Of a stretch of DNA of 42,444 bases, positions 1,688 to 37,583 are shown in pieces. A program made the position numbers and the translations under genes. Where the stretch lies: the IMG/VR virus record IMGVR_UViG_3300018481_000034, positions 1 through 42,444 of that record, one strand, 5' to 3'. The stretch is from a virus. The notes beneath the pieces were generated by a model, which saw nothing but the letters and a program-made list of their open reading frames with translations, did no database searches and had not been told where the DNA came from. Position 1 is the stretch's first letter. Every line of letters starts with the position of its first letter.

Positions 1688-2524
1688 TTACGATCCGCCC
1701 TGCTTATTGGTACGGATTGTCAATGAACCACCCGTCAATGAAGCAACGTTGGCAGTCATCTGTGATACGTTAATACCGGCCAAAGTACCCTTGAACTCGA
1801 TGATCCAGTCACCTGGAGCACCAGTAACAGTAACATCACCTGGGGCGATATTTGACAAGCCCTCAAGCGCCGTAGTAAGGGCTGCAACGCTGACATTGTA
1901 TGGTAGTGCTCCGGTCGTTTGAGCGGAGTAGGTGAGTGTGAATGTACCACCAGTGGCATCCGAAATGATTTCTTGGATTTCATTGGAGGTAAGCGAGATG
2001 GATGTAATGGTTTCATTCCAAGTAATGCGATAGAGGTTATCACTCGCATCGCCCAGGCCTCGACCAGAACAACTTGTCACGAAGAAAACACCATCACCGA
2101 ACTCACCCTCGAGAGTATCATCTGCCTTACACTTATAGATAATGACGTGGACGTCACCACCATCGTCGGCAATAGATTGACCCTCGATACGGAAGTATCG
2201 GCGTTGATCAGTAGTCTTCTTCAGGAAGTCTTTCACCTCGGCAGTGCCCGAACCCGATGATGTGACAGTGCCACCACTGAGTACGTTCCATGCCTCGATA
2301 GAAATACCACCTGCTTCTAGTTCCCATTCAACTACTGGACCTTTACCATGGATAGCCCAAAGTCGATCATCCCCACGGAGTTCCTCATAATCTTCGGCTT
2401 CTGAGAAGCTAAGAGTTTGAGCCACCGGAAGATCAACTGTGGTAGCCAAGGTACCATCCGCGTTGATAGGTGTCAATTTAATATCCCTCAAGCCAAACGG
2501 CAATACGGGATCAGTTAGCGGCAT
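1688..2524 (-). CDS. Major tail tube protein with C-terminal Ig-like domain
   Basis: A 278-residue protein. Residues about 1-180 form the tube domain (LPFGLRDIKLTPI, EWELEAGGISIEAW, FRIEGQSIADDGGDVHVIIYKC). Residues about 190-275 form a separate beta-rich domain of a type often repeated in phage tail proteins (NEIQEIISDATGGTFTLTYS and a VTVTGAPGDW core), comparable in place to the Ig-like tail domain of lambda gpV. Gene order between the connector genes and the tail chaperones supports the call. A close paralogue of the tube domain begins the 877-residue protein at 21136-23769. Start ATG has GGAAGG 7 bases upstream. Confidence 0.85.
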   Translation of the reverse strand: MPLTDPVLPFGLRDIKLTPINADGTLATTVDLPVAQTLSFSEAEDYEELRGDDRLWAIHGKGPVVEWELEAGGISIEAWNVLSGGTVTSSGSGTAEVKDFLKKTTDQRRYFRIEGQSIADDGGDVHVIIYKCKADDTLEGEFGDGVFFVTSCSGRGLGDASDNLYRITWNETITSISLTSNEIQEIISDATGGTFTLTYSAQTTGALPYNVSVAALTTALEGLSNIAPGDVTVTGAPGDWIIEFKGTLAGINVSQMTANVASLTGGSLTIRTNKQGGS

Positions 2525-2717
2525 TATACTTCCTTCCCTGAGCTGGGTGTGGAGGCGTTTTAAACCTCAGAGTTTCTAACAAATCTCCCTTAATAGAGAA
2601 GCGATGGATAATCACGACACCCGGGCGCTTACCACACCAACGACTGTCACATCGAACCTCGATGACATCATCCTCCATGGTTCCATGAAGTTTATTCTCG
2701 CACCTTAGTTCAATCAT
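2511..2717 (-). CDS. Small zinc-binding protein of the head-tail region (Com-like)
   Basis: A 68-residue protein starting MIELRCENKLHG with two Cys pairs' worth of ligands (C6, then CDSRWCG), the pattern of small actinophage proteins found beside the tail tube gene and of Mu Com-like zinc-binding translational regulators. The start at 2717 is preferred over upstream GTG/ATG codons at 2726/2723, because it has a GGAAG at good distance and matches the usual N-terminus. The end overlaps the start of the tail tube gene by 14 bases. The role is unknown; regulation of the next gene's translation is a guess. Confidence 0.6.
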   Translation of the reverse strand: MIELRCENKLHGTMEDDVIEVRCDSRWCGKRPGVVIIHRFSIKGDLLETLRFKTPPHPAQGRKYNAAN

Positions 2718-10683: not shown

Positions 10684-13600
10684 CTAACGAGTCCTCGTAA
10701 CAATAATCAATCCAGTAGATTCAGCTGGTTCGATATCTAGCATCTTATAATCCCTAAGTGAAATCCTCATAGATTCATAGTCATAGAGAACTATAACTAG
10801 GGGTAGAACTTCCTGACCGAATAATCTCCAACGAAGATCTAGATTATCACCGAAGTGAGCCTTCAAATTCCATTGCAACGCAACAGAATCTCCAGCAGGA
10901 GTTCTGATGGCCCAACGATAATCAATCTGATCAAAGAAGAAGGTACGGATGCCCCATTGAATCCCTACAGAATCCGTGACCTTTGATCGCGTATTCCATA
11001 CGAACATTTGCTGATCGCCGGTAAGAGCTCGTAGGACCCAACGTAGATCACGTTGCTTTGATACCGACTGTATCGTTCGCCAACGAAGATCCCTTTGTTG
11101 ATTAACCTTAGCCCTAGTATTCCACACCAAACCTAGAGTATCACCGACAGGACCACCAAGACCCCAGAGCAACTCTAGGTTATCATTGAATGTAGTTCTG
11201 ACACCCCATCTTAGGTTAGCATTGTCAGCCAACAGTGCTCGTACAGACCACCGAGGATTTATACTCTTGCCAACATAACCCCAGACCTTCCAGCGAAGAT
11301 CTAAAGTATCATTGAAAGTACTTCTTACATTCCATCGAAGATCTAGTAGATCACCGACAGTTCCGGTCTGCAATACATTCCACACCAAACCAAGTTGATC
11401 ACCGGTAAGTGCTTTGATAGCCCAACGAAGATCTTCCTGATCACCTATGAGTGCTCTGACTACCCAGCGATAATCTATGCTATCATTGAAGCTAGTCCGA
11501 ATACCCCAACGCAGATCATTCTGATCGTTTATTAAAGCTCTAACATTCCACCGAAGGTTATTGTTATCGCCAGTTAGAGTTCTAATACCCCATCTTAGTT
11601 CAGAAGAGTCACCAGCTGTACTGCGTAATGCCCATCGAAGATCTGTCTCATCGAGAAGCCTAGTACGAACTCTCCAGCGAATATCCAGGGCGTCCCCGAT
11701 GACTCCAACTGGTCCAAGGACGTCCCATCGGATGTCCAGAGGATCACCAAGAAGGGCCCTAACTGACCACCGGAACTCAGTATTGTCGCCAAGCGGTACT
11801 CTTATTCCCCAGCGGAAGTCAGCTTGGTCTCCAACTCCAGTTCGTATACCCCATCGGATATCTTCCTGGTCACCAACCACCGTACGGATCGCCCACCGGA
11901 GGTCTGAAGAATCATTGATCCGACTTCGGATCGACCAACGCAGATCGCTTGCGTCGTTGACCAGTGCCTTGATATTCCATCGTACATCACTGGTATCACC
12001 TATGAGCGCCTTGAGTCGCCAACGAAAATCTGATTGATCTCCAACAAAAGTTCTAACGCTCCACCGATAATCCACACTATCATTGAACTTAGTGCGGACA
12101 CCCCATCGTGTATCGAGGCTATCGTTGAACTTGGTTCTAACTCCCCAGCGGATATCGTTGAGAGCAAACGAGGCTTGCTTTGTATGCCAGCGATAATCTA
12201 TCTGATCACCCAAAGCAACCCTGAGGGACCAACGGAAGTCACTAGACTTACCTATAGCGAAGGATGCTATACCGGACCACCAAGGCAACATCCCCGTTGC
12301 CCACATGCGGTCTTGCTTCGTATTGATGGGTAGGTTCGGTGCTATAGGCAGACACTTAGTTTGCCAGGTAACAATCGACCAACGCAGTACCTGACCAGAA
12401 CCAATCCACGTATTCCATCGCAGATCAGTCTGATCACCCAGGATGGTTCGTACTGACCATCGAGTGTCTAGAGAATCATTGACTCTAGTGCGAACACCCC
12501 AGCGATAATCTATCTGGTCACCGAGAGCAGTACGCACATTCCAACGATAGTCTATCTGATCACCCAGTGCAGTGCGAACACTCCATCGAGTATCTAGGGA
12601 ATCATTAAGTGTAGTGCGTACTCCCCATCGTGTGTCGAGGGATTTTCCAACTGCTGTTGAGGGCTGTTGGAAGGTTATTAATGGATCTACTCGACGTTGT
12701 CTATAATTACCTATAATGCGAGCTACCGTTTTAGGCAGTACCCATGTCGGTTGAATGATAGTTGGGAAGGAAGGAAGAGGAGCAACAGTTACTGGAGGTG
12801 TACCGGGTGTTACATCAGCAGATGCCGTAGCAGTTAACCCACCCCATGCTGCGGATGCCGTAGCTTGTACTGGAGTAAGCGGTGTGGCAGTTACTGTGCC
12901 AGTCAAACCACCAAAAGCTGCTGAAGCTGTGGCCTGTGTTGTGGCTGTTCCTGGCGGATATTGATTGCTGGTACCCTCACCGACGAACAGGTTATCAAAT
13001 GAACACTCATTGGTTGGTGATGTCGTTTCTTGCAGATAAACGACGAGGTTGACAGCACCGCCCATCATGGCGGTATTGGTAGTGTTCTGGACTTCTTCTA
13101 CCAATTCACTGTCGTGGTAGACACGGAACCAATTGCCCGACGCCGTGTAGGTCCAGCGCACCAACGTCGCTCGATTGGTGCGATTGGCACCACTGAAGTT
13201 ACCACCATTGACATAGCCAGTAGTACGCACCTGCAGATGCGTCTCGTTGGCGATGGCGATGGAGTAGCCAACCCCGTTGCCGTCGACCAGTCCGACATTG
13301 ACACTGCCGTTGCCGATCGTCAGTGAGGCATTGGCATCGACAATGACTTCCCAATCACCAGAGAGGTCAACGCCGTGCGCCAAAACCCCCATGCCATGAA
13401 GGCCGGTGTTGTTGTTCGTCGTTCCTCGACCGGAGATGACTCCCCAGTCAATGGCGCCCAGCGAGATCCATCCAACCGGGGCACCATTCGCTTGATCGAA
13501 TGGCTCCCAGAAGTATGAGGTCGGAGTCGAAGGGGTCGCCGTTGCGGTGGCTCCCAAACCACCCCAGGCAGCCGACGCGGTAGCCTCTACCTGAGTGGCA

Positions 13601-15393
13601 TAGGCAACGTTGGTATCATTGACCACTGCCCCGAGATCTTCCGAGACGAGAGTCTTGCCATCGTTCGGAGCAACCCGCATGTTCGAGATGGTGACATCGA
13701 CAATGCCGCTGTCAATCTCAAGACCACGAATATGCCATGCAGTGGACGGATGACCGATCGAATTTGTGATCGCTCCGTTGGTCACCGTGGCGGAATTAGT
13801 GACCGAGGTGTTTGTGATCGACTTTGTGGCACCTTCAGCATAGAAAAGAACATCACCGTGGTCGACGTCAGTCGAGTCGTTGGCCCGATTGATCCGCTTA
13901 ACAGTAACTATTACGTCGTCTACATCACGAGTATTAGACTCGCAAGCAATATAAAGACCCGCAGCAACCGTGTGGTCCACGTCGATGTCATAAAACCGGA
14001 TGTTGTTTCCACCAACAATAGCACAGCCTCGACCGGCAGTGTTTGCGACAACCGGAGATTGCACCACCACATTACTGCAGGGACTGGCATCTCCATCATA
14101 AGAAACAACTGCCACACCATCATCAGCACAATTTGCTACATTCGGTGTATTGATTACTACATCAGTAGAACCATTAGTAACATGGATAGCATCAGCCCTA
14201 GAGCCAGTCAGCACCACATTATCGAGAATTGGTCGGGATGCCCCATAAACAAAGAATCCGACAGAGTGGCTCGAGGAAACTAATGTATTTGTAAGGCGCT
14301 GTTGACTACCGCTAATAACGACCTTGTGGTGCTCAAGATCAGTTCCTCGTGAAGTATTGACCGAAGAGAATTCAACATCAGTCAATTCCTGAAAAGTGCC
14401 AGACATCTTGAATGCGGAGGCTGTCTGCACCGTCGCATGAATGCGCCCTGGACCGATGATCTTTCCAGGGGTTGTCCAGTTCAGCACCACGTTGTGGTTA
14501 TAAATCTTCCCCACACGAATGTCGAGAATTGTGTTGGAAGTCATGGCGTCGAGGGCGCTTTGCAGCGCCGTAGCATCGTTGGTGGCGCCTGCTCCTCCAG
14601 CACCATAATCCTCTGGATAGATTATAGTAGGCTCAGCAGCAGCTGCAGTACCGGTCAATCCTCCCCATGCCGCCGAAGCGGTGGCCTGGACAACGGTTGG
14701 CTCGGGTCGTACCAAGACCACTGCGGTCAACGATTCCGACGCGGCATCATTGGTGCCATTCGTCCAGGCGTTGGTACCCGTAGTAGAACCAGCTGCACCG
14801 AGGGTCTTGTATGCCGTCATGCACTGGTTGTCGAGCGAGCCGCCCGCAGTTTCCGAGGCGTTGCCCCCCGTGACCAAGGTATACCCCGACGGTGCCCCAG
14901 GTGTCTTGGTCGCGGCAGTTGCCAGCGAAATCTGCAAGTGGGCAATAACAAATGCGTTGGCCGTCGCGCTGGTGGCATTGAGCGTAGCAGGCGTTGAGTT
15001 ATTGGCGATAACCCCGTAGGCGGGGACCGTGATGTCTTCAGGGGTGGCGTTGTTGACACCCCGCAAAGCGATGATGATCCCAACCATCTGTGACGACGTA
15101 GCATTACCCGACACAACGAAGGTATAGTTGGACGGCTCTCCTGAAGCCGTAGTGATCACCTTGCGTAAAATGGTAGTGTGGCGGTCGTTCTGAGTGGTGC
15201 TGCCCGCCGTTGCTGGCGTTAGTCCAGTCCAACCGCTACAGGTGAAGTTGGAGGTGTTGGCGAACGTGGTCTTAGAAATAAACGCGTAGAGGACATCGCC
15301 ATCTGCTAATCCAGTAGGTTTTGTGACGGTGATACCCGTCGAAGCCGCGGCGGTAACCGACGTGGCCTGTGCATTGACGATCGTGATGGCCAT
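10684..15393 (-). CDS. Giant multidomain tail/appendage fibre with 41 Trp repeats
   Basis: 1569 residues. In order: residues about 1-230, a Thr/Ala-rich jelly-roll-like domain similar in style to the protein at 16293-17141; an AWGGL linker repeat (about 235); residues about 255-600, a right-handed beta-helix of pectate-lyase type (EDYGAGGAGATNDATALQSA start motif); a second linker; residues about 625-820, a lectin/LamG-like beta sandwich (FWEPFDQANG, WEVIVDANASLTIG, WFRVYHDSELV); two more linkers (about 825-860); residues about 910-1525, roughly 41 tandem 14-residue repeats; a unique 45-residue C-terminal end. It is most likely a host-binding surface fibre. GC content is higher in the domains (about 13.0-15.4 kb) than in the repeat part, suggesting mosaic origin. 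ATG start, with the usual GGAGG upstream. Confidence 0.72.
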   Translation of the reverse strand: MAITIVNAQATSVTAAASTGITVTKPTGLADGDVLYAFISKTTFANTSNFTCSGWTGLTPATAGSTTQNDRHTTILRKVITTASGEPSNYTFVVSGNATSSQMVGIIIALRGVNNATPEDITVPAYGVIANNSTPATLNATSATANAFVIAHLQISLATAATKTPGAPSGYTLVTGGNASETAGGSLDNQCMTAYKTLGAAGSTTGTNAWTNGTNDAASESLTAVVLVRPEPTVVQATASAAWGGLTGTAAAAEPTIIYPEDYGAGGAGATNDATALQSALDAMTSNTILDIRVGKIYNHNVVLNWTTPGKIIGPGRIHATVQTASAFKMSGTFQELTDVEFSSVNTSRGTDLEHHKVVISGSQQRLTNTLVSSSHSVGFFVYGASRPILDNVVLTGSRADAIHVTNGSTDVVINTPNVANCADDGVAVVSYDGDASPCSNVVVQSPVVANTAGRGCAIVGGNNIRFYDIDVDHTVAAGLYIACESNTRDVDDVIVTVKRINRANDSTDVDHGDVLFYAEGATKSITNTSVTNSATVTNGAITNSIGHPSTAWHIRGLEIDSGIVDVTISNMRVAPNDGKTLVSEDLGAVVNDTNVAYATQVEATASAAWGGLGATATATPSTPTSYFWEPFDQANGAPVGWISLGAIDWGVISGRGTTNNNTGLHGMGVLAHGVDLSGDWEVIVDANASLTIGNGSVNVGLVDGNGVGYSIAIANETHLQVRTTGYVNGGNFSGANRTNRATLVRWTYTASGNWFRVYHDSELVEEVQNTTNTAMMGGAVNLVVYLQETTSPTNECSFDNLFVGEGTSNQYPPGTATTQATASAAFGGLTGTVTATPLTPVQATASAAWGGLTATASADVTPGTPPVTVAPLPSFPTIIQPTWVLPKTVARIIGNYRQRRVDPLITFQQPSTAVGKSLDTRWGVRTTLNDSLDTRWSVRTALGDQIDYRWNVRTALGDQIDYRWGVRTRVNDSLDTRWSVRTILGDQTDLRWNTWIGSGQVLRWSIVTWQTKCLPIAPNLPINTKQDRMWATGMLPWWSGIASFAIGKSSDFRWSLRVALGDQIDYRWHTKQASFALNDIRWGVRTKFNDSLDTRWGVRTKFNDSVDYRWSVRTFVGDQSDFRWRLKALIGDTSDVRWNIKALVNDASDLRWSIRSRINDSSDLRWAIRTVVGDQEDIRWGIRTGVGDQADFRWGIRVPLGDNTEFRWSVRALLGDPLDIRWDVLGPVGVIGDALDIRWRVRTRLLDETDLRWALRSTAGDSSELRWGIRTLTGDNNNLRWNVRALINDQNDLRWGIRTSFNDSIDYRWVVRALIGDQEDLRWAIKALTGDQLGLVWNVLQTGTVGDLLDLRWNVRSTFNDTLDLRWKVWGYVGKSINPRWSVRALLADNANLRWGVRTTFNDNLELLWGLGGPVGDTLGLVWNTRAKVNQQRDLRWRTIQSVSKQRDLRWVLRALTGDQQMFVWNTRSKVTDSVGIQWGIRTFFFDQIDYRWAIRTPAGDSVALQWNLKAHFGDNLDLRWRLFGQEVLPLVIVLYDYESMRISLRDYKMLDIEPAESTGLIIVTRTR
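10815..12660 (-). repeat. Tandem array of about 41 coding repeats of 42 bp (14 residues)
   Basis: Each unit reads approximately [G/N]D-x-x-D-[L/Y/T]-R-W-x-[V/I]-R-[T/A]-x-[L/V]; examples are NDSLDTRWSVRTAL, GDQIDYRWNVRTAL and GDQEDLRWAIKALT. The Trp and the Asp-x-x-Asp spacing are near constant; two units are damaged and one 40-residue insert interrupts the array near residue 1000. At DNA level the units are about 42 bp but have diverged, except near the N-terminal end of the array where neighbours are almost identical. Confidence 0.85.
12815..12950 (-). repeat. Two AWGGL linker repeats in the giant fibre
   Basis: Two tandem copies of QATASAAWGGLT(A/G)T lie before the Trp-repeat array. Further single copies lie at about 14640-14695 and 13545-13600 in the same gene, and another tandem pair at about 16355-16485 in the neighbouring fibre gene. 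DNA is similar between copies (for example ccaccccatg-type blocks), which gives short homology for domain exchange. Confidence 0.75.
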
Positions 15394-16292: not shown

Positions 16293-17141
16293 TTACCTTC
16301 TAACTAGGGTAGGTCGTATCATAAATAACTGAGCTTGAGCTGGAGAAGTTACATCAGCCGAGGCAGTTGCCGTAAGTCCACCCCATGGTGCTGAGGATGT
16401 AGCCTGTATTGGAGTAAGTGGAGTCGCCGTCACCGTCGCAGTGAGTCCACCCCATGCCGCTGAGGCAGTGGCTTGTACTGTAGCTCCACCAGCTGCTGCC
16501 TTAATCTCGACGCCCGCCATTGCCCCCGATGTGAGCAATTCGGTGGTCGTGAATCCAAGGGTCAGGGAACCGGCACCGGCCGAGGCTCGACTACATGCCC
16601 GTTCGTTGAATCCGAACCCGCCACCACCACCGCCGTTATACTGCGATGTTGAATTGGCATCAACCCCAATATCCCCGCCCGCCGAACGGTAAGGCAGACC
16701 GGCTAACAAAAGCGACCCTGTTGCCGTTGCGGTTATGGCAACGTCCCCGTCGTTCGCCGTCGTCGTCGTCCCAGTGTTGCCGACTCCAGAACTGTCCGAG
16801 CCCGCCAACGACCAAATAATGACCGACTGTCGATTGTAAGACCGACCAGCGGCATACGTTGTATTGATCTGTTCAGTCGTGACAACCGACGCTGCCCATG
16901 CCGTCCATATCTCGACTCGCCAATTATTGGGTCCGTCAACGACTTCAACGGCGCGCGTCCACGTCAGATTCCCCGAGGTCATCGTGGATATCTGGTTCGT
17001 TGCCGCTCCGTTCGCTACAAGCATCGCGACAACCATCCGGTTTGTACCCGGAGTGGTGAACGTCGGCCACGTTACGTCAGTGGCACTGCCGGTGAGATCC
17101 CGAGCGCTTACTGGAAAGCTTGCATCAACGGTTACAGCCAC
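16293..17141 (-). CDS. Fibre protein with jelly-roll domain and two AWGGL linkers
   Basis: 282 residues. Residues about 1-215 form a Thr/Ala-rich beta domain with WRVEIWTAWAASVVTTEQIN and a Gly-run (NGGGGGGFGFN); residues about 220-270 are two AWGGL linkers (VQATASAAWGGLTATVTATP, then IQATSSAPWGGLTATASADV); the last few residues are unique. It shares the linkers with the 1569-residue fibre and looks like a shortened version lacking the beta-helix, lectin and Trp-repeat domains. Base composition changes sharply between the GC-rich domain and the AT-richer linker, suggesting module exchange. Confidence 0.6.
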   Translation of the reverse strand: MAVTVDASFPVSARDLTGSATDVTWPTFTTPGTNRMVVAMLVANGAATNQISTMTSGNLTWTRAVEVVDGPNNWRVEIWTAWAASVVTTEQINTTYAAGRSYNRQSVIIWSLAGSDSSGVGNTGTTTTANDGDVAITATATGSLLLAGLPYRSAGGDIGVDANSTSQYNGGGGGGFGFNERACSRASAGAGSLTLGFTTTELLTSGAMAGVEIKAAAGGATVQATASAAWGGLTATVTATPLTPIQATSSAPWGGLTATASADVTSPAQAQLFMIRPTLVRR

Positions 17142-21135: not shown

Positions 21136-23769
21136 CTATGCCATGAACCCCGGAGGAGGTGAGCTTCCTGGTGAACCATCAAATACCACACCGGAGCCAA
21201 CATTGCCCTGACCAGTTACTCCTGGCGAGGTGTGGAATGAGACAAACTTATAAGCCGGCAAACCATTGGAAGGATCATCAATGACTGTGTTAAAGCTGCA
21301 AGTAACCGATCCTCCACCAAAACTTCCCATCCAGCCATACCCACCAATAGCAGTAAGAGGCTCAGAGAAGTGACCATCATCCGGTGATGGACCAAGGAAG
21401 TTAGCCCAGGCCGGTCTAACCGTATTGCTCAGGATAGACACTGGTGAATCGCTCCAACTAGACCTAAGAATCTGAATACCCCGCCCAGACACATTCTCGA
21501 CAAGGTTATTGCGGATCATAATCGGTCCAACAGAGCGATTACTGTAAAGGCCATTGCCATCCGAATGCCAAAGATCAATAATTATCCCATTACGGTCTGC
21601 AGACGGATTGCCATCATCCTGAATCTGATTATAGACCTGGTTATTCTCCAGCAGAATACGGAAACCACCCAGTCCACCCCCCACACCAGCCCAGCTACGT
21701 CCGATAGAGATGCCCGAACCAGCACCACCAAAACCATAAGCGGCATTGCCAGAAGCATCACGGATAATGCAGTTACGGACTACGAAGTTGTCCCCATTCC
21801 AAAAAGCAATACCATTACGTCCTATCTTGCCCGTACCGGGAATAGGACGGACGGTTAGACCATCGACAACGATATTGCCGCTAGGCCCAGAAGTAGAACC
21901 GCCCCTGTTGCTCCTCGAGCCATCCCCATAAATACCCTCAGCGTTCGTATTGCTGCCAGCAGCCTCCACCACACCAGGGCCAAACAATGTTATATTCTTG
22001 CAAGCTCCATAAAACTCCATGCCAGAGCCCCCAGGGTTTCTCAGTATCGCCCCAGCAGCCCATTCAACCCGGACACCCCCAAAATCCTTATTCAAATACC
22101 AGTTATCATCATTCCACAGCCCCGAGGGGATCAACACCAGTCTACCAGCCAGTTGCGATGTAGATAGATTGAGAATTTGACTGAGAGACCCGTTTACACC
22201 CACCACATAGTCAGGTGTTCCCCCACCTCCGCCAGAAGTAATGACAATATTATGGAAGCGAGAGTGTTGTCCAGCCGCATTGCTAGCCGTCAACAGCACA
22301 TCGTATGATGCAGCACCCGTATAGACATGTGTGGGATGCTGCAAAAAAGAATCCGTGGAAGCATCCCCAAAGTCCCAGCTCCATCCCGTGGGCACGTTGG
22401 TGCTCTGGTCATTAAACTGAACCGTTTGTCCCACCTGAGCAGAGCTTGGTGTTATCGTGAATTCCGCAACAGGAGGTAGACCCGGATCCCCACCACCACC
22501 AGACGCATTGCCAATAGTATAACTATCAAGATCAGCATACGTATACTCTAGTCCCGCATGCTCAATGCGTATAGTATTATTGCCAGAGTTGAGTGGAATG
22601 TTGATCGTTGTTGACTGCGTGAACCGAGCCGCACTCTCCCAGGAAGTAGCAGTGTTCGGAAGGCTGATAGTGCCCTGAATAGAGCCATTGACCCGTATAT
22701 TGACTATCGTTGGAGAATTGGGCGGATCGCCCTGTCCAAACCGTATCGAGAATGGATAAGTACCGCCGGTAGCGATGTTAGCGATAATCTGGTTAACGTC
22801 TCCCGTCAAACCAAAGAACCCAATATATCCCGTACCCGTATACCCCGGATAATCCGTACTAACAACAGCATTACCCTCAACCGAGCCAGCCTCAGCCTCT
22901 ATCGTCACCGATGTGCCCGATAGTGAAAGTGGTCTACTGCTAAGGTTGACTACAGCAGGCTGCAAATTTATGCCCCTCGAGACCGTCAAGGGCACCGCAG
23001 TAACAGCCAATGTACGTGGCGCCAACGTGAGTGCTCCCACACCACCAGATACTGACAATGGTTGCGCACTCATCTGGATGAGGCGTGGTTGTAAAGCAAT
23101 GGCTACGGCAAAACCAAGTGTAACTGCCAGAGGTTGAGCCTGTAGTGTGGTTGTAGCCGGCACTAGCGTGCCAGCAACCACATTGCCCGTAGAAATAGTC
23201 AGCGGCCGGGCAAGGATGTGGATGGTGTTGGGCAGGGCACGCACACCGCCAAAGACCTCTGTCGGAGCGGCGTTCCACCGCATTCGCCAAAGCTCTCCGG
23301 TCGAGTCTCCGATGCCCAGCCCTTCACACCGTGTCAGGAAGAACTCGCCCTCCGAGAACGTTCCCTCAACAGTCCCATTGACCTTACAGCGCCGTATGAG
23401 CACGTGGATATCAGAGCCATCATCATTAATAGACTGGCCCTCGATCACAAAGTAAGGTCGTACGTCCGTATCCAGTTTAACCAGTTCACGAAAGCCTGAT
23501 CCCGATATGAGAGAAGCCCCGGTAAGTATCTGCCAGGCCTCGAAACTGATTCCTCCGGCCTCGAGTTCCCACTCGACCATCGCCCCCGTGCCCTCCATGG
23601 CAACATTGCGATCATCGGACTTCAGTAATTCCACATTTTCCGTCTCACGGAACGTGACGACTCGACCTACCGGCAAATCCACCGGAGTGCCCACACCCAA
23701 CTCCCCAATGAAGGGAGTTATTTTAACATCCCTAATACCGAAGGGCAGATATGTCTCGACTAGCGTCAT
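21136..23769 (-). CDS. Tail-tube paralogue fused to CBM, PKD and beta-helix domains
   Basis: 877 residues. Residues 1-180 closely match the major tail tube protein (LPFGIRDVKITPF, EWELEAGGISFEAW, FVIEGQSINDDGSDIHVLIR). Residues about 185-290 hold three or four short repeats (L-x-P-x-x-L-x-A-x-P-L). Residues about 295-440 look like a CBM6/35-type carbohydrate-binding domain (EAEAGSVEGN, IRVNGSIQGTISLPN). Residues about 450-535 are a PKD domain (WSWDFGDASTD, PTHVYTGAASYDV). Residues about 545-860 form a right-handed beta-helix, strongly similar to the one at 34113-35756. The most likely reading is a minor tail-tube subunit that displays a carbohydrate-binding or depolymerising adhesin along or at the end of the tail. 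Its ribosome site is inside a hairpin. Confidence 0.8.
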   Translation of the reverse strand: MTLVETYLPFGIRDVKITPFIGELGVGTPVDLPVGRVVTFRETENVELLKSDDRNVAMEGTGAMVEWELEAGGISFEAWQILTGASLISGSGFRELVKLDTDVRPYFVIEGQSINDDGSDIHVLIRRCKVNGTVEGTFSEGEFFLTRCEGLGIGDSTGELWRMRWNAAPTEVFGGVRALPNTIHILARPLTISTGNVVAGTLVPATTTLQAQPLAVTLGFAVAIALQPRLIQMSAQPLSVSGGVGALTLAPRTLAVTAVPLTVSRGINLQPAVVNLSSRPLSLSGTSVTIEAEAGSVEGNAVVSTDYPGYTGTGYIGFFGLTGDVNQIIANIATGGTYPFSIRFGQGDPPNSPTIVNIRVNGSIQGTISLPNTATSWESAARFTQSTTINIPLNSGNNTIRIEHAGLEYTYADLDSYTIGNASGGGGDPGLPPVAEFTITPSSAQVGQTVQFNDQSTNVPTGWSWDFGDASTDSFLQHPTHVYTGAASYDVLLTASNAAGQHSRFHNIVITSGGGGGTPDYVVGVNGSLSQILNLSTSQLAGRLVLIPSGLWNDDNWYLNKDFGGVRVEWAAGAILRNPGGSGMEFYGACKNITLFGPGVVEAAGSNTNAEGIYGDGSRSNRGGSTSGPSGNIVVDGLTVRPIPGTGKIGRNGIAFWNGDNFVVRNCIIRDASGNAAYGFGGAGSGISIGRSWAGVGGGLGGFRILLENNQVYNQIQDDGNPSADRNGIIIDLWHSDGNGLYSNRSVGPIMIRNNLVENVSGRGIQILRSSWSDSPVSILSNTVRPAWANFLGPSPDDGHFSEPLTAIGGYGWMGSFGGGSVTCSFNTVIDDPSNGLPAYKFVSFHTSPGVTGQGNVGSGVVFDGSPGSSPPPGFMA

Positions 23770-23774
23770 TTTAT

Positions 23775-23791
23775 ATCCTATGAAGTAGGAT
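23775..23791 (-). promoter_or_regulatory. Hairpin that can hide the ribosome site of the tube-fibre gene
   Basis: ATCCTA and TAGGAT pair across a 5-base loop. In the mRNA the second arm contains AGGA, the only Shine-Dalgarno candidate for the ATG at 23769 (6-base spacing). Formation of the hairpin would lower translation, in keeping with a minor tube component. Confidence 0.45.
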
Positions 23792-34112: not shown

Positions 34113-35756
34113 CTATGGGGTGTTGCCGGAGGATGTGACTGGAGTGCTAAAGCCCTCCCACCCATAGGCAGCTTTGCCTGCACCTTGTGATGTATCTACC
34201 GTATTGTTGGTTACGGTTGGCCCTCGAGAGAAGCCCGCACCATAGCCACCGATAGCAACTTTGGGGTTGCCCTGGTGTGGATCATTACCGAGGCCATAGG
34301 CATATCGGCCACTGACCTTATTCTGGTCTACAGTCACTAGAGAATCTGCTTCTCCAGCTATCAGTACCTGAATACCTCGGCCAGCAACATCCTTGATGTC
34401 GTTGCCCTTGATCAAAACAGGCCCATGAGCGCGGTCCGAATAAGCTCCTCCATGATCACCATGGTAAAGGTCGAGGATGATACCATTGCGGTCCGCAGAA
34501 TCTTGACCGTCAGTGATGTCGGCACTATATAGCTTGTTGCCTTCCAGACGACAGGCATAAGACTTTGCTGGTACTCTGGTATTGGTCTTGCTATGTCCGA
34601 TCGAGATGAGTGAACCTGCCGTATTGTAACCGAAGATGGCATTGCCCGCAGCGTGATGGATTTCACACCCCAGGACCTCTACCTTATCGGCTCCCCAGAT
34701 ACCCACACCATTGCGTTGGATGTTGCCGGTACCTGAGATGGGTCTGACCACAATGTTCTCGATGACGATATTGCCGGCGGACATACCGTTGCCGCCCTTA
34801 TCAGCTCTGGTTGAGTCGATAAAGACACCTTCACTGAAGACATCGTTGCCAGCAGCTTCGATGAAAGCCTTGCGAGCCGCTGTAGCCGTGACTCGGAAGT
34901 TTTCAATCTGACCGTAGCCTTCAATGCCTGAAGTACCTCGGATGACTGCTCCTTCTTCGAGAAAAATTTGCAGTTTTTTGAAGGGCTTGTTGACCATGTA
35001 GAGTCGGCCATTCCACACTCCCGAGGGAACCCCGATTTTCCACTCACCCTGCAGAGCCTCAGCTCTATCTACAAGCTGCTGCAGCGTGCCATGGGTACCT
35101 ACAACCACATCATAATTTCCCGCCACTGGTGGGGGCGTTACGGGTGGCTCCGGGGTAACGATGGGGGGTACTCCTGGGTCGGTATTTACTCCGACAACTG
35201 AAAATGTCCCATCTTTCGATGTGCAGCCCACGGCGTAGAGATCCGCCCAGTTGCTCCATGCCGAAGTGCCATCATGTTCAATTTTCACAACCGACTCACC
35301 TTTGGGCAAGCTGAAACTTACCCGAGAGGTCCACTCCCTGCTATTTTCAGCCCATAGATCCTCGGTGACTGCCAGCGTCAACTGCTTATTGGTTGTCCCT
35401 ACACTCACTTTTCGTGTGGACCCCGTTTGCTGCGACTCAGAGGCCAAGGCATAATCGAGGGCAAATTCTACCGTCATTGCCTTGTCAGTTATAACCTTGA
35501 GACTCACAGCTTCACCAGGTTGACCCCACATACCGATATGATTCTCAACGAGAACCATGGTTTCAGCGTTGACCAGAGTGAGCTTATTGGCTGGTACCAC
35601 CAGTGAAAATTCCTCCCCAGGTTCTACAGGAGGTTCTACAGGGGGTTCAACTGGAGGTTCTGTTGTTGCCAGATCCTCTGATATGACAATGAGGCGATCT
35701 CCTTTTACTTTGAGATCCTCCCCCATCGCCTTAAGTTCTGCTGAATAATCTGTCAT
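34113..35756 (-). CDS. Beta-helix surface protein with N-terminal helical tag
   Basis: 547 residues. Residues 1-28 (MTDYSAELKAMGEDLKVKGD and on) are nearly identical to the start of the next protein. A Pro-rich PPVEPP linker follows, then residues about 50-195 form a beta sandwich of CBM-like type, then residues about 220-540 a right-handed beta-helix homologous to that in 21136-23769 (PISGTGNIQRNGVGIWG against PIPGTGKIGRNGIAFWN; DSADRNGIILDLYHGD against PSADRNGIIIDLWHSD). This is probably a polysaccharide-active or -binding enzyme. AAAGGT upstream. Confidence 0.7.
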   Translation of the reverse strand: MTDYSAELKAMGEDLKVKGDRLIVISEDLATTEPPVEPPVEPPVEPGEEFSLVVPANKLTLVNAETMVLVENHIGMWGQPGEAVSLKVITDKAMTVEFALDYALASESQQTGSTRKVSVGTTNKQLTLAVTEDLWAENSREWTSRVSFSLPKGESVVKIEHDGTSAWSNWADLYAVGCTSKDGTFSVVGVNTDPGVPPIVTPEPPVTPPPVAGNYDVVVGTHGTLQQLVDRAEALQGEWKIGVPSGVWNGRLYMVNKPFKKLQIFLEEGAVIRGTSGIEGYGQIENFRVTATAARKAFIEAAGNDVFSEGVFIDSTRADKGGNGMSAGNIVIENIVVRPISGTGNIQRNGVGIWGADKVEVLGCEIHHAAGNAIFGYNTAGSLISIGHSKTNTRVPAKSYACRLEGNKLYSADITDGQDSADRNGIILDLYHGDHGGAYSDRAHGPVLIKGNDIKDVAGRGIQVLIAGEADSLVTVDQNKVSGRYAYGLGNDPHQGNPKVAIGGYGAGFSRGPTVTNNTVDTSQGAGKAAYGWEGFSTPVTSSGNTP

Positions 35757-35770
35757 TAGATACCTTTCTA

Positions 35771-36781
35771 TTAGTTGACCGGAGGAGGTGGATAGGGTGA
35801 CTCAGCCCACCACATCAAAACATGTTCACCAGGCACTGATTTGAGTTGTTCAGCGACTGTAGTCCACATTGCTTGCCCACGAACATAGGGATAGATTTCA
35901 GACCACCAAATAGGCTTGTTAGGTACCTGTGTGCGGATCCATTTAGCGACTTCTGTGTAGTATCGGGCAACTTCAGCGTTATTTGTTCCTGGAGGACTGT
36001 TCAAGGTCCCATCCGGCTTCCAAGGCCGGCAGCCCAGGTTGGCATCCACACATACAAAGTCAAACTTGCCATTGGCGAAATAGTATTTGAGGGCGTCATA
36101 GTCCCGCTGGTCACTATCTCCCCATGGTCCATTGATAGCTGGATTAGTAGCCTTATGAGACCCAGTACCAGGCAAATCTTTGCTCATGGCCGGATAATTG
36201 CCTCCACACAATACCCCAGGGTCAACCTTCTTCACCGCATCGAAGATTTTATTCTGGAGGTCAGTTGCCCCTTCATAGTCCCATCGGTTTTGAGCTTGGT
36301 TATAATAGCCCTTGAGCTCATTCCACAGCTGCACATGGGTGAGACCTCGTTTTTGCCCTGAGGGATTGTGTCGTTTGACTATCTCAGCAATCCAGTTGGC
36401 ATAATTTTGGTGTTGGCTGGCCAAGATGCGATCCCCCAGCCCATTCCATGGTCCTGGCGGTGAGGGTCTGAATCGAGCAGGTCCATTGCAGGCCGTAAGC
36501 ACTCGATACTCTGCATTAGCCATCTGACGAATACGGGCGTCAAGGTTTGTCTCGGTAGAACCCCACCCGAATGCCGGTACAGCCTGTACTTTATAGTTCA
36601 TGACCGCTGGTAGTGTGGGATCACTATAGGTGGCTCCATAAAGTATTCGGTTGGTTGGTGTGGGGGGTATTGGGGGTTCTACGGGGTCGGGCTTCAAATC
36701 ATCTCCTATGACTTTGAGTCGGTCTCCCATGACCTTTAACTGCTCGCCCATGGCTATCAGTTCTGCTGAATAGTCTGTCAT
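35771..36781 (-). CDS. Clan-A glycoside hydrolase with N-terminal helical tag
   Basis: 336 residues. Residues 1-30 repeat the tag (MTDYSAELIAMGEQLKVMGD); residues about 32-42 are a Pro linker; residues about 45-330 look like a TIM-barrel glycosidase: VQLWNELKG with the Asn-Glu acid/base pair (Glu155), and PIWWSEIYPY with the predicted nucleophile (Glu295), as in GH39/GH5-like clan GH-A enzymes. It is likely to degrade a host surface or wall glycan. AGGGAG upstream; 9 bases from the Rpf gene. The exact GH family cannot be told by eye. Confidence 0.7.
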   Translation of the reverse strand: MTDYSAELIAMGEQLKVMGDRLKVIGDDLKPDPVEPPIPPTPTNRILYGATYSDPTLPAVMNYKVQAVPAFGWGSTETNLDARIRQMANAEYRVLTACNGPARFRPSPPGPWNGLGDRILASQHQNYANWIAEIVKRHNPSGQKRGLTHVQLWNELKGYYNQAQNRWDYEGATDLQNKIFDAVKKVDPGVLCGGNYPAMSKDLPGTGSHKATNPAINGPWGDSDQRDYDALKYYFANGKFDFVCVDANLGCRPWKPDGTLNSPPGTNNAEVARYYTEVAKWIRTQVPNKPIWWSEIYPYVRGQAMWTTVAEQLKSVPGEHVLMWWAESPYPPPPVN

Positions 36782-36790
36782 TGTTCTCCC

Positions 36791-37315
36791 TTAGTTGTAA
36801 AGAAACCGGCCGCAGGTGGGCCAAGGTGCTGGGCCACGGGCTGCGTAAAGTAACTGAGCACGGTAATTTTGTTCGTCTCTTGAAGCGTCGATAGGATCTC
36901 CTGTACCTCCGACGCTTCGCCAGGTGGATAGGTCAAACTGATAGAGCCCTCTATACCACCCTTGTGGTGAAATCGCGCGTGGGTTGTCACTAGATTCGCA
37001 GAGTCGAAGACTAAGCCACTGTGACTCAGATGGATTTCCATAGTTTGTCCTTGGCGGGGGAGTATAGGCCCTAACTTGAATCTTAGGTTCTTCTACAGGT
37101 TCAGGTTCGGGCGGTGGGGGAGGTGGAGTATATTGTGGTATATCGGGTTGTAAGTCGTGCAACGCATGATCGACATATGTCCCCGAGACTCTATAGGCTG
37201 GCGAAAAAATTGCGTCAGCTATAGAAGGTAAACCGTTAGGTTCTTCTTGATAGTCAGGGATTAGGGCGCCTGCTAGGAGCGTCGCGAAAGTTGTCGTGAG
37301 CACCAATTTTGCCAT
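36791..37315 (-). CDS. Rpf-domain muralytic enzyme (transglycosylase-like)
   Basis: 174 residues from MAKLVLTTTFATLLAGALIP, a signal peptide or membrane anchor. After a Pro-rich linker (QYTPPPPPPEPEP), residues about 96-172 form an Rpf/transglycosylase domain: LRLCESSDNPRAISPQGWYR with catalytic Glu107 after Cys106, YRGLYQFDLSTWRSVGG, and a C-terminal Cys168 that can bridge to Cys106. Rpf proteins cleave peptidoglycan in Actinobacteria and are a strong host hint. SD AAGGAGG 9 bases upstream; the frame continues upstream, but without a ribosome site. Confidence 0.82.
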   Translation of the reverse strand: MAKLVLTTTFATLLAGALIPDYQEEPNGLPSIADAIFSPAYRVSGTYVDHALHDLQPDIPQYTPPPPPPEPEPVEEPKIQVRAYTPPPRTNYGNPSESQWLSLRLCESSDNPRAISPQGWYRGLYQFDLSTWRSVGGTGDPIDASRDEQNYRAQLLYAARGPAPWPTCGRFLYN

Positions 37316-37583
37316 CGTAGTTGCCCTCCTTGAGCGCCTTACAGATTTCACACTCAGGGTCTTCCCAAGTGATCGGCTTTCCATGCACGATGCATGTAGG
37401 TGTGGGATGCGGTAGCTGGGGCATTGGGGGATTCAGAAGATCTCGTTCGTATTTGACTAAGCTCTCATTGACTGAACTAAGAGCCCTAAATACTATTTGT
37501 CTTCCTGATGTAGGTTCAAGATTATTAACAAGGATTCTCATTTCATCTAATGAGGTCCTGATCCGTTCAACTTCATCTGCCAT
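37254..37583 (-). CDS. Small coiled-coil protein with Cys/His motif
   Basis: 109 residues: MADEVERIRTSLDEMRILVNN, a helical coil, then CIVHGKPITWEDPECEICKA, a CxxH...CxxC zinc site, ending in a basic tail. GGAG lies 4 bases before the ATG. The end overlaps the Rpf gene by 62 bases. Unknown role. Confidence 0.55.
   Translation of the reverse strand: MADEVERIRTSLDEMRILVNNLEPTSGRQIVFRALSSVNESLVKYERDLLNPPMPQLPHPTPTCIVHGKPITWEDPECEICKALKEGNYDGKIGAHDNFRDAPSRRPNP

Follow-up and report, generated by a model that had tools for sequence, protein, structure and literature searches.

The window, which is the whole 42,444 nucleotide stretch of viral DNA analysed here, encodes an 877 residue protein, hereafter the tube-adhesin, in which a tail tube domain is followed by carbohydrate-binding, PKD and beta-helix domains. 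It is paralogous to the major tail protein that the phage also encodes: the anchor has the tube fold and is under tube-like purifying selection, the cargo that it carries changes faster, and the arrangement is conserved in two phages. From this we infer that the tube-adhesin is probably a minority tube subunit, which would be present in the virion and would display a family 35 carbohydrate-binding module (CBM35), a PKD domain and a beta-helix outwards on the tail, where they would bind sugar.

Domain architecture of the tube-adhesin

The gene and its parts are as follows:

21136..23769, minus strand: tube-adhesin gene, 877 amino acids, ATG start
23254..23769, minus strand: tail tube domain (the anchor), residues 1-172, assigned from PHROG 4971, identity with the phage's own tube protein, fold and pN
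23611..23616, minus strand: Asp52-Asp53 at the tip of the long beta-hairpin, found without exception in the aligned tube proteins
22915..23253, minus strand: linker, residues 173-285, five degenerate repeats of about 20-24 amino acids, LxPxxxxLxAxPLxVSxG
22528..22902, minus strand: CBM35, residues 290-414 (Pfam CBM_35, 2.3e-9)
22246..22476, minus strand: PKD domain, residues 432-508 (Pfam, 2.3e-12; PKD structures in the PDB search)
21139..22221, minus strand: right-handed beta-helix module, residues 517-877 (weak Pfam Beta_helix match to residues 634-784, 0.0025)

The tube-adhesin is encoded separately, as the earlier note on this DNA had claimed, with its own open reading frame and start codon and a match to PHROG 4971, and these Pfam matches agree with its description of the rest of the protein as carbohydrate-binding, PKD and beta-helix domains, that to the beta-helix being the weaker. 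The assignment of residues 290-414 to CBM35 is secure, with the structures 2w3j and 2w1w matched by Foldseek and 2w3j also matched by profile (1.5e-7). In the linker, where only 2 of 1000 shuffled sequences were equally repetitive, pLDDT is about 40 and the fold is not predicted.

The beta-helix model is moderate, and its weak fold matches are to polygalacturonase, CBA120 TSP2 and phage 'pectate lyase superfamily' proteins, which supports, at the level that such a model and such matches allow, the right-handed beta-helix known from polysaccharide depolymerases and lyases. No enzyme family exceeded the cut-off for the tube-adhesin in searches of Pfam, Foldseek and PDB profiles, so that no catalytic family is assigned, and anti-phage defence models gave no match. 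A SADRNGII-DL-H block is invariant across four relatives. Judged from sequence, the module may be an adhesin or a depolymerase.

Relationship to the major tail protein

The paralogue to which the anchor is related has a tube domain and an Ig-like domain:

1688..2524, minus strand: ordinary major tail (tube) protein, 278 amino acids (PHROG 4971, 3e-62)
1997-2524, minus strand: tube domain of this protein, part of the same gene
1691-1996, minus strand: Ig-like C-terminal domain of this protein, residues ~177-278, part of the same gene

Three lines of evidence identify this as the genuine tube protein. The gene follows tail terminator-like and completion genes and precedes a tail assembly chaperone-like gene, a place that it occupies in the window and in the records G001 and L003; in the tail operon of G001, a related phage described below, the genes that come after its ortholog are those for chaperone, tape measure, Dit-like and Tal-like proteins and endolysin; and its relatives, which are single-copy in actinophages, are annotated as major tail proteins in hundreds of these phages. 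The Dit-like and Tal-like genes of G001 were called by position and by sequence features seen by eye, with a weak tail match for Tal only. No fibre genes were found in the tail operon of this related genome, and adhesins must therefore come from elsewhere.

Over residues 1-172 the tube-adhesin can be aligned to the first 176 residues of the ordinary tube protein at 49% identity and 68% positives (E 1e-55), so that the earlier note's alignment of the first ~180 residues holds, and the motifs EWELEAGGIS, IEGQSI and DDG-D-HV that it had listed were all found in both proteins. PHROG 4971 'major tail protein' matches residues 3-212 of the tube-adhesin at 2.2e-43. The likeness is confined to the tube domain, the Ig-like domain not being common to the two. 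The tube-adhesin gene is situated upstream of the terminase, at a distance of ~19 kb from the gene for the tube protein, and the place between the terminator and the chaperone and tape measure genes is held by 1688-2524; the tube-adhesin therefore belongs to the PHROG 4971 family as a paralogue and is not this phage's major tail protein. Because the Ig domain of the ordinary tube protein is widespread, records with several tblastn places for its gene were not counted as having paralogues.

Conservation and age of the duplication

Both genes are also carried by a 60,886-base virus contig (L001/G001) and by a 60.9-kb contig binned with an Acidobacteria genome (L006); these are near-identical and were counted as one related phage. 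The tube-adhesin ortholog has 884 amino acids and is 65-67% identical overall and 88% identical in the tube domain, the ordinary tube protein is 87% identical to that of the window, and synteny with structural genes is kept around the tube-adhesin gene. When viral contigs were scanned with the beta-helix modules of the tube-adhesin and of a second gene, 34113-35756, no relatives came up, so only this one related phage could be compared.

An assembly chimera was ruled out as the source of the architecture, as it recurs in the independent virus contig and in the Acidobacteria-binned contig, which, being near-identical, count once.

A scan with the tube-domain alignment gave 286 relatives, and in the best 80 of these all other tube proteins were 167-321 residues long. 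A second tube domain was found in none of 44 related virus records, all of which had a single one though many are fragments, and duplication thus appears to be rare in the family. In a maximum-likelihood tree with a midpoint root, the adhesin's tube domain lies inside an Ig-bearing clade of 17 that includes the phage's own tube protein, on a long stem of 1.14 changes per site (support 100/92). The length of this stem indicates that the duplication is old, not recent.

Constraint on the tube domain and its proposed place in the tail

Structure prediction gave a tail tube fold with a long beta-hairpin for the N-terminal domain (AlphaFold and Foldseek), in accordance with the earlier note, with a pLDDT of ~80-95 over residues 11-170. 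The top Foldseek matches of residues 1-172 were the tail-tube proteins 8xkn, 9jgh, Douge, lambda V, monocin and 80alpha, and all the best PDB fold matches were tail-tube proteins or tube-like rings. The fold came from this Foldseek search, since the tube alignment, used as a profile against solved structures, had given chance matches only.

Comparison of the two phages gave a pN of 0.085 (0.054-0.122) for the tube domain of the tube-adhesin and of 0.088 (0.055-0.125) for that of the true tube protein, as against 0.31 in the linker, 0.24 in the CBM35, 0.30 in the PKD domain and 0.29 in the beta-helix. Within the tube-adhesin the cargo has therefore changed about three times faster than the tube domain, in a comparison of one pair of phages. 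Since a leftover of a fusion would not be kept at the tube's own rate, the tube domain is unlikely to be such a leftover.

The tube-adhesin keeps 41 of the 51 conserved positions of the tube family, where ordinary members keep 45-51. Both aspartates at the hairpin tip, Asp52-Asp53, are intact; the stacking of rings in lambda gpV depends on the corresponding pair (PMC8718954). At eight of the ten lost positions both phages share an identical change: V37, T39, S51, A85, a deleted Gly, G90, S119 and W161. These include the substitutions G51S, beside the hairpin tip, G85A and G119S, and the deletion goes with a four-residue shortening after the helix; the remaining two belong to the NET end after residue 166. 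Mapped by analogy onto the contacts described in PMC13033339, the lost positions would fall mostly in ring-contact loops, namely the hairpin tip, the loop after the helix and a beta-beta loop. The loss of ten conserved residues suggests that free mixing of the paralogue and the ordinary subunit may no longer be possible. The cargo begins at the point where the tube proteins of the clade attach their Ig domain, which in solved tubes stands outside the tube (PMC8718954). Fold, selection, conserved sites and geometry together favour an anchor that is still assembled into the tube, but specialised.

We propose that an old duplicate of the tail tube gene was turned into a carrier, whose product would be a minority tube subunit. 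Its N-terminal domain would enter the hexameric tube, either beside ordinary subunits or as a separate ring of its own, and the C-terminus would leave on the outside by way of the repeat linker, so that the CBM35, the PKD spacer and the beta-helix could bind, and perhaps cut, a sugar of the host surface before the tip engages.

Such subunits need not be scattered along the tube, and a dedicated homo-hexameric ring at one of its ends, whether at the neck, where it would be the last, or above the distal tail protein, where it would be the first, is a real possibility, though not the expected arrangement. Its six adhesin arms would then form a collar or crown. The inferred position of most lost residues in ring-contact loops (PMC13033339) fits such a ring, the eight identical changes in both phages are as expected for one fixed special neighbour, and lactococcal phages have neck collars with beta-helix or CBM ends, borne on another anchor (PMC6669499). 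However, the sequence points to neither end of the tube, and the Asp pair used in ring stacking is intact at the hairpin tip.

A position outside the tube proper is improbable. The tube fold is common to distal tail proteins, which often bear sugar-binding domains, as in JBD30, and the tube-adhesin might on that account be an extra Dit-like adaptor at the tip; yet its sequence falls inside the tube-protein clade (support 100/92), and in the related genome a separate Dit-like gene is already present after the tape measure. Slightly more improbable still is a free or host-directed protein, such as a secreted depolymerase, in which the tube domain would be an unassembled relic: the synteny with structural genes and a tube domain that keeps to the rate of the real tube while the rest drifts argue against this, although the gene does lie outside the tail operon and some conserved residues have been lost. 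The preferred reading remains that of a minority subunit within the tube.

The true tube gene had the lowest pS (0.49-0.52), and that of the tube-adhesin gene was ordinary (0.65-0.75); with overlapping intervals, the difference would be consistent with a weaker expression of the latter. A low copy number had also been proposed in the earlier note, from a hairpin at the ribosome site:

23775..23791, minus strand: 6-bp hairpin holding the AGGA of the tube-adhesin ribosome site, not significant and not conserved

The site does lie in a hairpin, but the argument for copy number falls away, as the folding energy does not stand out (z -0.92) and the sequence upstream of the orthologous gene differs, with AGGUGG in another context.

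Cargo modules and neighbouring genes

The beta-helix also occurs on another protein of the window:

34113..35756, minus strand: paralogous beta-helix module, homologous to residues 517-877 of the tube-adhesin, on a different N-terminal anchor, 547 amino acids

The beta-helix modules of the two genes show 41-44% identity between phages, and the ortholog of 34113-35756 likewise joins the module to a different N-terminal anchor. The presence of the module on this other anchor, in the window and in the ortholog, indicates that the cargo is a swappable cassette.

The products of 34113-35756 and 35771-36781 (minus strand) have a common N-terminal segment, MTDYSAEL-AMGE-LKV-GDRL-VI. The latter resembles a TIM-barrel hydrolase by eye (WNE ... 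WWSE), with no Pfam or PDB match, and the two, one of them with the beta-helix, look like a shared anchor with swapped cargo. The 1569 residue product of 10684-15393 (minus strand) contains a beta-helix at residues 335-487 and dozens of ~14-residue repeats, GDQxDxRWxVRT; its relative in G001 has 1081 amino acids, with the same repeats and a different N-terminal half. A short repeated motif, QATASAAWGGLTATA, is common to 10684-15393 and 16293-17141 (minus strand).

A resuscitation-factor-like transglycosylase, typical of actinobacterial phages, is encoded at 36791-37384 (minus strand; Pfam 1.5e-15). Set against the sister contig in an Acidobacteria bin, this actinobacterial type of enzyme leaves the host uncertain. 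The sister phage genome (L021) encodes at 1967-2662 (minus strand) a papain-like C1 protease (3.5e-8), which is absent from the window.

Comparison with known systems

Tube genes are also found in multiple copies in the actinophages of PHROG 2645, which have two or three each (243 records with 480 places, mostly two per genome) at within-genome identities of 35-51%; 'two major tail proteins' are mentioned in PMC11080557. In at least 15 actinophage genomes, of the Sporto and DizzyRudy groups, a separate tube paralogue bears a C-terminal extension of 350-460 residues. Such copies are gp19 of Arthrobacter phage Sporto (679 aa), with full-length matches in 13 close relatives, and gp19 of Microbacterium phage DizzyRudy (586 aa), and Microbacterium phage Damascus probably has one too. 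In other phages, relatives of the extension are joined to 'minor tail' anchors of a different kind. The extension itself has no Pfam match and is without CBM35, PKD or beta-helix domains. A third, unextended tube paralogue was seen in DizzyRudy (L108, 14035-14802, 255 aa) and in Sporto (L113, 6567-7388, 273 aa). These genomes resemble the window in having at least two tube-domain genes, of which one is extended at length on the C-terminal side. They differ in that their tube family, PHROG 2645, has no detectable sequence relation to that of the window, and in that their genes are adjacent in the tail operon, whereas that of the tube-adhesin is placed far from it. No literature discussing the extended actinophage copies was found.

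Host-binding proteins of siphophages are usually placed at the baseplate, at the neck or on frameshifted tube ends. A separate paralogue under full tube constraint, together with extended paralogues in an unrelated family, suggests a general route by which the tube gene is duplicated and the cargo swapped on the copy, leaving the tube gene itself untouched, a route that could be tested in the cultured phages Sporto and DizzyRudy and that offers a natural scaffold for the display of proteins on phage tails. It is a more speculative and rather doubtful extension of this idea that duplicated tube genes have repeatedly become cargo subunits, with altered ring contacts setting a programmed, adhesin- or enzyme-bearing minority at fixed places in siphophage tails, the cargo here being a CBM35 and a beta-helix depolymerase. 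If true, such subunits would add to the baseplate and the neck fibres a third means of adhesion.

The earlier note had taken tube proteins with one small Ig domain to be the known kind, and a review of tube proteins covers only Ig or FN3 extensions (PMC8718954); the implication of the note that no others are known is contradicted by TpeX (PMC6669499) and by the separately encoded, extended paralogues of actinophages. In lactococcal 936 phages, a frameshift extends a fraction of the tube subunits with a host-binding carbohydrate-binding module, the extended tube protein being TpeX (PMC6669499). The tube-adhesin is similar in having such a module, here a CBM35, C-terminal to a tube domain, but TpeX arises from the same gene through the programmed frameshift and has a smaller, BppA-like cargo, whereas the tube-adhesin is a separate open reading frame with its own start. 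SPP1 gp17.1/gp17.1*, lambda gpV, T5 pb6 and Douge likewise have a tube domain with an outward C-terminal domain, and the SPP1 tube mixes short and long forms at 3:1 (PMC8718954), but in these phages the extension is only an Ig or FN3 domain of ~90 residues encoded by the same gene. The neck passage structure of 936 and TP901-1 phages consists of virion proteins of 500-900 amino acids with CBM or beta-helix C-termini, and differs in its anchor, a BppU-like N-terminal domain at the neck rather than a tube domain. Among these systems, the tube-adhesin is an independent, distantly located case, with larger cargo and in an unrelated tube family, of the little-noticed kind represented by the extended actinophage copies.
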